From positions 256,747-320,746 of the forward strand of contig WGNX01000003.1 of the NCBI GenBank assembly GCA_016124335.1: DNA of 64,000 nt, written 5' to 3'. Origin of the DNA: Alphaproteobacteria bacterium. GTDB lineage: Bacteria; Pseudomonadota; Alphaproteobacteria; CACIAM-22H2. The translations under genes and the position numbers were made by a program. The notes beneath the pieces are model-generated. The model searched no databases. It had not been told where the DNA came from and worked only from the letters and a program-made list of their open reading frames with translations. Below are positions 36,414 through 41,305 of the stretch, in pieces. Positions within the stretch are counted from its first letter, which is position 1, and every line of letters starts with the position of its first letter.

Positions 36414-37961
36414 ATGAAGCCCGCGACACTCGAAACCGGCGAAGCGCCCCTCGCGCTGTGGCGTGAGATCATGGCCGGACGGGGCCTTGTCGCGGGCGAA
36501 CGGGCGGGCCGCGCGATCGCCGCGGGCCACGCCTTGCTCGCCAAGGCCGCGCGCGGCAACGACGCGATCTACGGGGTCAATACCGGGTTCGGAAAGCTCG
36601 CAAGCGTACGCATTCCCACCGACCGGCTGGCGGAGTTGCAGGTCAACATCGTCCGCTCGCACTGTGCCGGCGTCGGCGCGCCGCTGCCCGAACCGGTCGT
36701 GCGTCTCGTGCTGGCGCTCAAGCTTGCGAGCCTCGCGCACGGCGCCTCGGGCATCCAGCCCGCGATCGTGGCATTGCTCGAAGGCATGCTCGCGCGCGGC
36801 GTCCTGCCGGTCGTGCCCGCCCAAGGCTCGGTCGGCGCATCCGGCGATCTGGCGCCGCTTGCACATCTTGCCGCCGTGATGATCGGCGAGGGCGAGGCCT
36901 TCCATGCCGGCGAACGCATGCCGGGCGGGGCGGCACTCGCGCGCGCCGGGCTTTCCCCCGTGGCGCTCGGGCCGAAGGAAGGTCTGGCACTCTTGAACGG
37001 CACGCAGGTATCGACCGCGCTTGCACTGGCCGGCCTGTTCGCGATCGAGAATGCGTTCGGTGCGGCACTCGTCACCGGTGCCATGGCCGTCGACGCGGCC
37101 GCTGGCGCCGACACGCCATTCGACGCCCGCATCCAGCAGCTGCGCGGGCAACCCGGCCAGATCGATGTTGCCGCCGCACTCCGCGCGCTGATGGCCGACA
37201 GCGAGATCCGCCGCTCGCACCTTGCCGACGATCCGCGCGTACAGGACCCCTATTCGCTGCGCTGCCAGCCGCAAGTGATGGGTGCCGCACTCGACGTGCT
37301 GCGCGCGGCCGCGTCGATGCTCGAACGCGAGGCCAACGGCGTTACCGACAATCCGCTCGTGATGGCCGATACCGGCGAGGTGCTGTCGGGCGGAAATTTC
37401 CACGCCGAGCCGGTCGCGTTCGCCGCCGACATGCTGGCACTGGCCGCGGCCGAGATCGGCAATCTTTCGCAGCGTCGCTGCGCGATGCTGGTCGATCCGG
37501 TCCTGTCGGGATTGCCGGCCTTCCTTATCCCCAAGCCCGGCATCAATTCCGGCTTCATGGTCGCCGAAGTAAGCTCGGCAGCGCTCGCCTCGGAGAACCG
37601 GATGCGCGCCGCACCGGCGTCGACCGACACGATCCCCACGTCGGCGAACCAGGAGGATCACGTTTCGATGGCCGCCCACGGCGCGCGGCGCCTGACGCCG
37701 ATGGCCGAGAACCTCGCGGCGATCGTCGGGATCGAGGCGATGATGGCCGCACAGGGAATCGAGATGCGCAAGCCCCTGCGGCCCGGCCCGCGCGTTGCCG
37801 TTTCGCTTGCGCGTGTGCGCGAACATTCCGCCTTTCTCGAATCCGACCGCGCGCTTGCCGGCGAGATGGCGGCAATTGCCGCATTGGTGGCCGACGGCTC
37901 GTTGCTCGGCGATCACGCGGATATCCGCGCGCTTCTGCCTTCCGGCGGACCGCTCCGCTAG
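36414..37961 (+). CDS. hutH: Histidine ammonia-lyase
   Basis: A 515-residue lyase converting L-histidine to urocanate + ammonia. A142-S143-G144 in [14 protein letters not shown] forms the MIO electrophile. [12 protein letters not shown] near residue 53, [14 protein letters not shown] and [15 protein letters not shown] near 415 are family hallmarks. It stands alone, about 22 kb from hutF/hutG. The enzymes for the middle steps (hutU, hutI) are not in the window. Confidence 0.93.
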
Positions 37962-38088
37962 ACCGTCACGCCCGGGCGAACGGCGCGAGCCTGATCGTGA
38001 CCGGCGGTGGCCGTCACCCCGAATTCTGCAAATTTTGCGGAAAATGGGCATCGTGGAGCCTGCGGCCGAAACGCGCTAGAATGGAATG

Positions 38089-39447
38089 ATGAGCAGTTCC
38101 GCCCTCGGCAGCGCGCTGAGCGCGCTTTTCGCAAACCGCACGGCGATCGACTATCGCGCGGCGAATATCGCGAATGCGCAGACCGACGGATACAAGGCCG
38201 TCGAGGCACGCCTGTCCAGCTACGTGACGCAAGGCGCCACCGGCGGCGTGCTCGCCACGCCGGTCCTGTCGAGTGCTGCGCAGGGCGCGATCCTCCAGTC
38301 GGCCGCAGCGACGTCTTTTGCGGTGACCGGCTCGGGCTTCCTTCCCGTTCAAGACGGCACATCGGGTAGCGGTGAAACGCTCTTCACCCGCCGCGCCGAT
38401 TTTGCACCGGACGAGAACGGCTTCCTTCGCAACGGTGCCGGCAAGGTACTCTACGCGCTGCCGGCCAACGGTTCCGGGCCGCTTGTTCCGGTGCAGATCA
38501 ACCGGGCCGCCCTGCCGGCCCAGCCCACGGCCAACGCCGTTTATGCCGCGAACCTTCCCGCCAATGCGCCTGCGGGCAGCGTCGTGAATGGCGGCACGGT
38601 CACGATCACCGACGCGCAAGGCCAGGCGCAGAGTTTCTCGATCACCTGGTACAACCGCTCCACGCCGGGCGGGACCCTGCCGGGCGTCCCTGCGGGTGCG
38701 ACGACGGGGACAGGCGGCATTCCCGCTTCGGCCGCGGGCACCATCCCGCAATGGCGCGCCGTGCTCACGGCGCAGACCGGTTCGGCCAACAGGCCGGAAT
38801 CGCTTGCACTCGATTTTTCGTTCGGCACGACGGCAGGGGTCGATGCCGGCTTGCCCGTCTCGGTCAACGTGCAGTCGACCAACCCCGCCACGCTTTCGGC
38901 CGCGACGACCGGCGGCCGCGTCGCGATCGGCTATCGCGCGCCCGGTGCGGCGGCCGCCCCGCTCCAGCAGATCAATGTCGAGTTCGGCGCGCCAGCGGCT
39001 TCGGGCGGCGCGTCGACATTGGGCGCGCCGGGCGGGCTCACCTCGTTCGGGGCCACCGGCATCTCGATTTCGCGCAGTTCGGCCGACGGTTATCCCTCCG
39101 GCACGTTCGTGGGCGCCGGGATCGATTCCGGCGGACAGGTTTATGCGAGCTACACGAACGGCCAGCGTGTCGCCCAATACCAGGTCGCGGTCGCGAATTT
39201 CGCCAACGCAGGCGGGCTTGTTGCCGGGAACGGCGAGGCGTTTCGCGCTGCCGATGCATCGGGCACGCCCACGATCGGCAGTGCGGCAGGCGGCGGCATC
39301 GCGTCGAACGCGCTCGAAGGTTCGAACGTCGATCTGGGTACCGAGATCACGCGTTCGCTCGTGGCGCAGCGCGCCTATTCGGCGAGCGCGAGGCTGGTGA
39401 CGACAAGCGACGAGATGCTCAAGGAACTCCTGCGCGTGCGCCGCTAG
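38089..39447 (+). CDS. Stand-alone flagellar hook protein FlgE-like
   Basis: A 452-residue protein (an in-frame ATG at 38086 adds one Met). The N-terminus TAIDYRAANIANAQTDGYKA matches the rod/hook Flg_bb_rod domain. The C-terminus GSNVDLGTEITRSLVAQRAYSASARLVTTSDEMLKEL (described by region, about residues 412-448) matches Flg_bbr_C. The middle is rich in Ala, Gly, Ser and Thr. No other flagellar gene is in the window. TAGAAT at 38077-38082 suggests leaderless start at 38089. It may be a spare hook subunit or a repurposed surface protein. Confidence 0.78.
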   Translation: MSSSALGSALSALFANRTAIDYRAANIANAQTDGYKAVEARLSSYVTQGATGGVLATPVLSSAAQGAILQSAAATSFAVTGSGFLPVQDGTSGSGETLFTRRADFAPDENGFLRNGAGKVLYALPANGSGPLVPVQINRAALPAQPTANAVYAANLPANAPAGSVVNGGTVTITDAQGQAQSFSITWYNRSTPGGTLPGVPAGATTGTGGIPASAAGTIPQWRAVLTAQTGSANRPESLALDFSFGTTAGVDAGLPVSVNVQSTNPATLSAATTGGRVAIGYRAPGAAAAPLQQINVEFGAPAASGGASTLGAPGGLTSFGATGISISRSSADGYPSGTFVGAGIDSGGQVYASYTNGQRVAQYQVAVANFANAGGLVAGNGEAFRAADASGTPTIGSAAGGGIASNALEGSNVDLGTEITRSLVAQRAYSASARLVTTSDEMLKELLRVRR

Positions 39448-39470
39448 AAATCGCTCGAAGGGCAAGGGAC

Positions 39471-39968
39471 GTGGGCTTCAGGCTCGTTTCGGAACTTCGA
39501 CTCAACCCTGCGTCCGCCACGCTGCCGGAGCCTCTCGCCGAAATGTACCGGTACTGGGAGGGCCGCCGCGGAGATCGCGCGATGCCGGTCCGCGCGGATA
39601 TCGATCCGCTCGATCTGAGTGCCCGGCTGGGGCGCATCCATCTGCTCGATGTCGAAGGGCCCGGATTGTTCCGCTACCGCGTCTACGGCAGCCGGATGAC
39701 AAATCCGGACGCACGCGACATGACCGGCAAGACCACCGTCGACTACGCCGATACGCAATTCGGCATCCTGGTCACGCGTCATCTCGCGCAATGCGTCGCC
39801 GAGCGTGCCCCGGTCTGCTACGAAATCCGCGGCACGCTCGACGACGATCCCTATTTCTACACACGCATCGCGCTGCCGCTGGCGGGCGCCGATGGAAATG
39901 TCGCGATGATCCTTGTCGGTTCCGAACGTGGATCGGTCCCCATGAGGGTCCAGCGCGACGTCCTCTAG
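39471..39968 (+). CDS. PAS-domain protein (PF07310 type)
   Basis: A 165-residue protein made almost entirely of one PAS-like domain of the alphaproteobacterial PF07310 family (LAEMYRYWEGRRGDRAMP, IHLLDVEGPGLFRYRVYGS, FYTRIALPLAGADG). It has no output domain. The start is GTG 39471 with a gggcaaggga ribosome-binding site, 23 bases after the hook-like gene stop, so the two may be co-transcribed. A signalling or protein-interaction role is inferred. Confidence 0.78.
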   Translation: MGFRLVSELRLNPASATLPEPLAEMYRYWEGRRGDRAMPVRADIDPLDLSARLGRIHLLDVEGPGLFRYRVYGSRMTNPDARDMTGKTTVDYADTQFGILVTRHLAQCVAERAPVCYEIRGTLDDDPYFYTRIALPLAGADGNVAMILVGSERGSVPMRVQRDVL

Positions 39969-40045
39969 GGCCCTTCACTTGTTGCCGCCGGTGCGGTACG
40001 GGTTATGCAGCGGTCTGACCGACATACGATTCAGCAACGGCGATC

Positions 40046-41305
40046 ATGAAAGTTCTCGTCCTGGGCGGCGGCGTCATCGGCGTCACGACCGCGTACTATC
40101 TCGCCCGTGCCGGCCACGAGGTAACGGTCGTCGACCGCCAGGCCGGCCCTGCGCTCGAGACGAGCTTTGCCAACGCAGGTGAAATATCGCCGGGCTATGC
40201 GTCGCCTTGGGCTGGTCCGGGCATTCCGGTCAAGGCGGTCAAATGGCTGCTGATGCCGCACGGGCCGCTCGTCGTGCGGCCGCGCTTCGACCCGGCGATG
40301 TGGGCCTGGATCATCCGCATGCTGCGCAACTGCACGTCGGCACGCTATGCCCGCAACAAGAACCGCATGGTGCCGCTGGCCGAATATAGCCGCGACAGCC
40401 TGCGCGACCTGCGCGCCGAGACCGGCATTTCCTACGACGAACGAAGCCAGGGCACGCTTCAGCTTTTCCGCACGCAAAAGCAGCTCGACGCGATCGGCTC
40501 GGACATTGCGGTGCTGCGCTCGATCGGCGTGCCCTTCGAGGTTCTCGACCGCGATGGATGCATCCGCATCGAGCCGGCGCTGGCGCGCGTGCGCGAGCGG
40601 TTCGTGGGCGGCCTCCGGCTTCCCAACGACGAAACGGGCGACTGCCATCTGTTCACGACCCGGCTTGCCGAAATGTCCGCAGGCCTTGGCGTCCGGTTCC
40701 TCTACGACACGCAGATCCATGCGATCGAGCGGTCCGGCGGGCGGATCGAACGGGTTTCGACAAGTGCCGGCACGCTTTCGGCCGACGCCTATGTCGCGGC
40801 ACTGGGCAGCTACACGCCGCTGCTGCTGCGCCCGCTCGGCCTTCACCTGTCGGTCTACCCGGTCAAAGGCTATTCGCTGACGCTGCCCATCGTCAATCCG
40901 GCAGCAGCCCCCGAGTCAACCGTGATGGACGAAACCTACAAGGTCGCGATCACGCGACTGGGGACGCGCATCCGCGTAGGCGGCACCGCCGAGATTTCGG
41001 GCTTCGACACGACGCTGCGCGAGAGCCGCCGCGCCACCCTCGCCCATTCGGTCGGCGATCTCTATCCCGGCGGCGGCGATATTTCGCGCGCGACCTTCTG
41101 GTGCGGCCTCCGGCCGATGACGCCGGACGGCCCGCCGGTGATCGGGCGCACGCCGATCGCAAACCTTTTTCTCAACACCGGCCACGGCACGCTTGGCTGG
41201 ACGATGGCTTGCGGCTCGGGCCGGGTGCTTGCCGACCTGCTTTCGGGAACCACACCGGCCATCGATCTGGAAGGTCTGTCGCTGGCGGCGCACCGGACCT
41301 TCTAG
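40046..41305 (+). CDS. dadA: D-amino-acid dehydrogenase
   Basis: A 419-residue FAD enzyme oxidising D-amino acids to 2-oxo acids with electrons to the respiratory chain. The dinucleotide motif [21 protein letters not shown] opens the protein. [21 protein letters not shown] near residue 40 and the end ([20 protein letters not shown]) are DadA hallmarks. No alanine racemase gene is adjacent. Its stop shares 4 bases with the convergent exporter gene. Confidence 0.92.

Follow-up and report, generated by a model that had tools for sequence, protein, structure and literature searches.

A FlgE-type hook protein paralogue with a candidate leaderless start and diverged D0 ends in an alphaproteobacterial genus

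The usual view of the bacterial flagellum allows one hook-subunit protein per flagellum. The gene considered here, flgE3, lies in a stretch of 64,000 nucleotides (the window) that forms positions 256747-320746 of contig 11 in an assembly of 2.9 Mb, 75% complete, with Rhodospirillales MAGs, Tagaea sp. CACIAM 22H2 among them, as its named relatives. A preliminary description of the window had reported no other flagellar genes in the 64 kb, and this was borne out for the six families covered by a search of the whole genome (Flg_bb_rod, Flg_bbr_C, Flagellin_N, FlgD, FlhA and FliG_C), none of which had a match elsewhere in the window. The gene and its downstream neighbour are as follows.

38086..39447, + strand: flgE3, FlgE-type hook protein paralogue, 452 aa from the ATG at 38089 or 453 aa from the ATG at 38086
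39471..39968, + strand: PAS_5 (PF07310) single-domain protein, 165 aa, GTG start, 23 nt after flgE3

The second ATG (38089) is probably the conserved start codon of flgE3. Pfam matches to the product comprised Flg_bb_rod (23.1 bits, cut-off 20.7), the FlgE/F/G D1 domain (28.5 bits, cut-off 27) and Flg_bbr_C (52.5 bits, cut-off 23), and since the N-terminal and C-terminal domains both exceed their cut-offs the two ends of the protein are present, in agreement with its initial characterisation as a full-length FlgE-like protein with both conserved ends. FlgE3 passes all the curated cut-offs of the FlgE/F/G axial protein superfamily (TIGR03506, PF00460, PF22692, PF06429), scoring 183.5 bits against 70.25 for the TIGR03506 subfamily model, and misses the NCBIfam equivalog cut-off for FlgE, for which the best model was NF004242 (202.1 bits vs 365). 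The canonical and second copies from the same genome, at 234.4 and 243.9 bits, miss that cut-off too, so this genus falls outside the model's range. On its sequence FlgE3 is classed as a FlgE paralogue rather than an equivalog hook protein. The distal rod proteins FlgG and FlgF belong to the same TIGR03506 superfamily, but FlgE3 falls far below the FlgF and FlgG cut-offs (96.3 vs 178.5 and 82.9 vs 252.75 bits respectively) and, unlike them, has an extra domain matching FlgE D2. Salmonella FlgE was its top sequence match among solved structures (6.8e-24). An AlphaFold2 model, with a mean pLDDT of 68.5, has the order helix, beta domains, helix, and its top matches by Foldseek and VIA-align were hook proteins (7cbm, 8z5y, 6jzt, 1wlg), the best being the Salmonella FlgE fragment 1wlg (Z 18.9, 3.3 A over 265 residues). 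The predicted structure is consistent with the D0-D1-D2 fold of a hook subunit, its D0 helices being predicted at low confidence (D0 parts mostly at pLDDT <50).

An obvious explanation for a lone hook gene is that it is the only one the bacterium has, within a scattered flagellar regulon, a case that the preliminary description had itself raised. Two further FlgE-type genes were found in this genome, making three in all.

C11:228149-229594 (L005:13147-14595): solitary FlgE2-type copy, about 65 kb upstream of flgE3
C14:18337-19809: canonical flgE, in a flagellar cluster on contig 14

The contig 14 cluster contains, according to Pfam, flagellin, FlaF, FlgK, FliK, FliF, a sigma-54 activator, FlhA and an SRP54-type GTPase, and a separate genome search placed flgD there; the gene between flgK and flgE is flgL-like by position only, with no Pfam match. 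It is true that the flagellin and FliG genes are spread across several contigs, but with a canonical flgE beside flgK and the flgL-like gene, in the company of flgD, fliK, fliF and flhA, the reading of flgE3 as the sole flgE is rejected and retains next to no probability. The suggestion that flgE3 is a second hook subunit holds in so far as it is a hook-type paralogue existing beside a canonical flgE, but it is one of three such genes and not of two. No flagellar neighbours were seen among the genes called around the solitary contig 11 copy, which is 95% identical between this genome (G000) and that of a related species (G008) and has a sigma-54-like site upstream. The six Flagellin_N matches of this genome lie on four contigs (C11, C14, C3 and C15), of which one is on contig 11, outside the window. 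Ten of the 11 genus genomes have one FlhA each, and none was found in the fragmented G001 assembly; going by FlhA, this bacterium would have a single set of flagellar export genes.

The distribution of flgE3 is patchy. It was found in four of the 11 genus genomes, namely the window genome, G008, G007 and G010, with identities to the window protein of 79%, 69% and 61% respectively, the G010 copy being split over two contigs with an exact overlap of 119 bases. As it was not found in the other seven (G001 fragmented), the gene is evidently dispensable. In each of G002-G005, which are 94-98% complete, FlgE occurs as a single copy. When 61 genomes were searched, all close relatives of FlgE3 fell within the genus, the best-scoring match outside it being 36% identical. 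Recent transfer on a plasmid is not suggested, plasmid-borne homologues all being <60% identical, with the top identities among the matches listed at 28-33%. In a tree of 23 sequences, which addressed the call for a phylogeny against true FlgE, the four FlgE3 copies form a monophyletic paralogue clade of their own with support of 100/100 on a stem of 0.65 changes per site, the G010 row being a partial piece of 370 aa with a long branch. Other expansions of the hook-type genes occur in the genus: G007 carries a tandem pair of canonical-type flgE next to flgK and a flgL-like gene (L056), and a second flgK/flgL-like/flgE module is present in both G006 and G009 (L061-L064), the neighbours in these three genomes being named from sequence starts.

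Patchy presence is what would be expected of an old duplicate in slow erosion, with weak expression or none, and this explanation also draws on the relaxed constraint on the D0 ends of FlgE3 (below) and on the ratios of nonsynonymous to synonymous change. The dN/dS values (Nei-Gojobori) of three FlgE3 pairs were 0.149, 0.250 and 0.213, above that of the solitary FlgE2 pair (0.052); those of two G006/G009 pairs were 0.081 and 0.063. However, the canonical G000/G008 pair has a value similar to those of FlgE3, at 0.155, and the three full-length FlgE3 genes and both pieces of the fourth have intact frames with no stop or frameshift although synonymous sites are far diverged (pS about 0.54-0.58 in the three pairs). 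The arrangement of a -10-like element and ATG described below is, moreover, kept in all four. Erosion thus appears distinctly unlikely, and the substitution ratios indicate that FlgE3 is under purifying selection, somewhat weaker than that on most of the other copies. The gene is conserved and intact, codes for a FlgE-shaped protein and belongs to a paralogue clade of its own.

The region immediately before the start codon sets the clade apart from its relatives.

38077..38082, + strand: TAGAAT, -10-like element, 6 nt before the ATG at 38089 in a leaderless arrangement

At the corresponding position before the aligned ATG the orthologues have TACAAT (7 nt), TAAAGT (6 nt) and TACACT (7 nt), so that T, A and T at hexamer positions 1, 2 and 6 are common to all, and none of the four has a Shine-Dalgarno match of >3 nt. 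The reverse is true of the other FlgE copies of the genus whose starts were examined: all 16 have a Shine-Dalgarno match of 4-7 nt and match TATAAT at no more than two of six bases at the hexamer position. Such an element is rare in the background also, a 5/6 match to TATAAT at 6-7 nt occurring at one of the 1703 ATGs on both strands of the window, which is the ATG at 38089, while among 100 called gene starts, taken from the window and five related loci with the window gene entered from its first ATG, none had a match of 5/6 or better and two had one of at least 4/6. The earlier proposal that TAGAAT is placed for a leaderless mRNA is supported, because the hexamer without a Shine-Dalgarno sequence is found in 4/4 FlgE3 and the opposite in 16/16 others, and flgE3 may accordingly be read from a leaderless transcript. 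A generic scan for sigma-70 promoters and terminators (37900-40100) found nothing, with no convincing -35; the support is therefore limited to the -10 element and no -35 is claimed. Upstream regions were also scanned with the sigma-54 consensus. Sigma-54-like sites, combining GG-N10-GC spacing with a TTGC box, were found upstream of three copies outside the FlgE3 clade (the solitary copies of G000 and G008 and the second tandem copy of G007), and no such site was found upstream of the window flgE3 or its G007 orthologue. A looser GG-N10-GC pattern without the box matches upstream of the G008 FlgE3, and the scan of this clade covered the window, G007 and G008, so it is for the window and G007 copies that independence from sigma-54 has the best support. 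Among alphaproteobacteria leaderless transcripts are no rarity, according to the available portion of one study (PMC7566282).

A second peculiarity of the clade lies in the terminal D0 regions of the protein.

38089..38223, + strand: N-terminal D0 helix region (residues 2-46), divergent relative to every other FlgE in the genus
39304..39444, + strand: C-terminal D0 helix region (residues 407-453), also diverged

D0 is the part that polymerises and lines the hook, and it is usually the most fixed part of the hook proteins of this genus; in FlgE3 it has diverged like the rest. The N-terminal region contains an AlphaFold2 helix (4-46), predicted at low confidence. Among themselves the canonical and FlgE2-type groups differ at 12.7% of D0 positions (2-46 plus 407-453) and at 32.5% of the rest, whereas FlgE3 differs from the other copies at 51.7% of D0 and 46.2% of the rest. 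As a yardstick, canonical FlgE of the genus and Ferrovibrio FlgE are 53-54% identical in D0 and 30-33% elsewhere. These D0 statistics are based on the three full-length FlgE3, the split G010 copy being left out. A contrast as high is given by six of 452 circular shifts of the two-ended mask, which was picked after the C-terminal divergence was seen; in a preceding one-ended test (residues 2-75) 22% of circular shifts were as high, which is not significant, while none of 2000 column permutations reached the observed value. Positions invariant in the 14 other copies and changed in all three FlgE3 amount, with domain borders estimated by us, to 10/20 in the N-terminal D0 helix (residues 2-39), 5/15 in Dc N, 0/20 in D1 N, 8/73 in D2, 7/41 in D1 C and 11/35 in the C-terminal part. 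Codon-level ratios of D0 to the rest were 1.0-1.4 for the three FlgE3 pairs vs 0.26-0.78 for six other pairs, with wide and overlapping intervals. The strong conservation of D0 relative to D2 that is typical of hook proteins is present in the other copies of the genus and missing from FlgE3.

The loss of this special constraint counts against ordinary co-assembly of FlgE3 with canonical FlgE, and it is because the ends that serve assembly have drifted so unusually that a surface or signalling role borrowed from the flagellum, as first proposed alongside the second-subunit idea, has to be weighed. FlgE3 would then keep the hook fold and build no hooks, being either a secreted or surface protein or a regulator that signals the state of export or assembly, with a PAS protein as its partner in some species. 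Its separate promoter and the want of the six flagellar families elsewhere in the window fit such a role, but FlgE3 retains both D0 ends and most of the residues invariant in FlgE, and also the C-terminal residues concerned with export. Salmonella FlgE has three described export signals, one of them a hydrophobic signal at the N-terminus, and the comparison covered the other two: the gate recognition motif is given as residues 39-43 of FlgE in the part of PMC8983047 consulted, and R380 and Y382 as C-terminal export-signal residues in that of PMC10936197.

38212..38226, + strand: position of the export-gate recognition motif, LSSYV, from alignment to Salmonella FlgE 39-43

The first residue of the motif is Phe in all 14 other full-length copies and Leu in all four FlgE3, while Arg429 and Tyr431 of FlgE3, corresponding to R380 and Y382, are kept and I376 is replaced by Leu425. 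FlgE3 may well still be exported.

The PAS neighbour bears on the same alternative. The downstream ORF scores 50.6 bits for Pfam PAS_5 (cut-off 22) and misses the NCBIfam equivalog cut-off for MopJ (47.7 bits vs 200). It adjoins flgE3 in this species and in G008, where it is 77.9% identical, an operon-like arrangement that would favour a signalling function; however, it is not present within the stretches around FlgE3 in G007 or G010 (for the latter, the downstream stretch L065), so two of four species are without the partner, and with 20 PAS_5 matches in this genome a PAS neighbour is less telling. The pairing of flgE3 with a PF07310 protein noted at the outset is therefore real at this locus, but a conserved pair is rejected, and the two genes probably constitute an operon in one sub-lineage, that of this species and G008 only. 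On balance a role apart from hooks is rather unlikely. Another PAS_5 match lies about 3.2 kb from a flagellin pair at the start of contig 11.

The best guess, which could about equally well prove right or wrong, is that FlgE3 can be exported and serves as a minor or alternative subunit of the hook type, expressed outside the sigma-54 flagellar programme. The gene would be transcribed by a housekeeping-type sigma factor, independently of that programme, and the protein would leave through the single flagellar type III gate by means of the C-terminal signal that it keeps and a gate motif with leucine in first place, to act as a minor or alternative axial subunit rather than as part of the bulk hook lattice. 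It might be located at the hook end, or in hooks built under other conditions, with the PAS protein as an optional and perhaps regulatory partner. The change from Phe to Leu in the gate motif, the dispensability of FlgE3 and the lack of a recognised -35 count against this explanation. A more speculative scheme, and an improbable one, is that FlgE3 is a hook-protein derivative freed from lattice assembly, produced constitutively from a leaderless mRNA and either held ready or exported via the flagellar gate, which caps or modulates hooks or reports the status of the export gate, with a PAS sensor co-expressed in two species.

Among known systems the closest is the canonical FlgE of the genus itself (the contig 14 copy and its orthologues), with which FlgE3 shares domains, fold and 53-56% identity over its full length; FlgE3 differs in being about 25-40 residues shorter, in its diverged D0, in the lack of a Shine-Dalgarno sequence and in lying, in the window, outside any flagellar cluster. 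Helicobacter pylori similarly has a FlgE homologue beside its main hook protein, and the FlgE2 structure 5npy, which we take to be HP0908, matches the FlgE3 fold (Z 14.9) with 18% identity over the aligned part. Both HP0870 and HP0908 are listed as flgE in a table of PMC2864241, the part of that paper drawn on here. Campylobacter jejuni likewise has two full hook-protein genes, Cj0043 (FlgE) and Cj1729c (FlgE2); the Campylobacter hook proteins are of 58 and 92 kDa, and the likeness to FlgE3 lies in the second hook gene, promoter and D0 aside. A second hook-type gene in one bacterium is thus already known from these two organisms, as far as the sources consulted go. In the accessible part of PMC5069557 the purified C. 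jejuni hook held one product despite the two genes, which advises caution over the reading of FlgE3 as a minor subunit. The portions seen of the literature on multiple hook proteins, HP0908 and Tagaea contained no description of flgE3, and as far as these searches go what is unusual here is that the leaderless start is shared by several species and that constraint on the D0 ends is relaxed.

With as many as three hook-type genes, two to six FliG_C matches, several flagellins and one export gate where found, the genus suggests that motor and hook parts can be as variable as flagellins. FlgE3 is a natural case in which a hook protein's self-assembly ends have been freed from constraint while the gene is still under selection, and it makes a division of labour among hook paralogues testable. 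The FliG_C counts refer to each of the 11 genomes and include some fragments at contig ends. The matches, of two types about 62% identical, include C11:75743 and C10:34054 in this genome and C89:15082 (L055:3423-4445) in G007, where one FliG gene is situated about 5 kb away from flgE3, with kinase-like and chemoreceptor-like genes nearby (neighbours named by eye).
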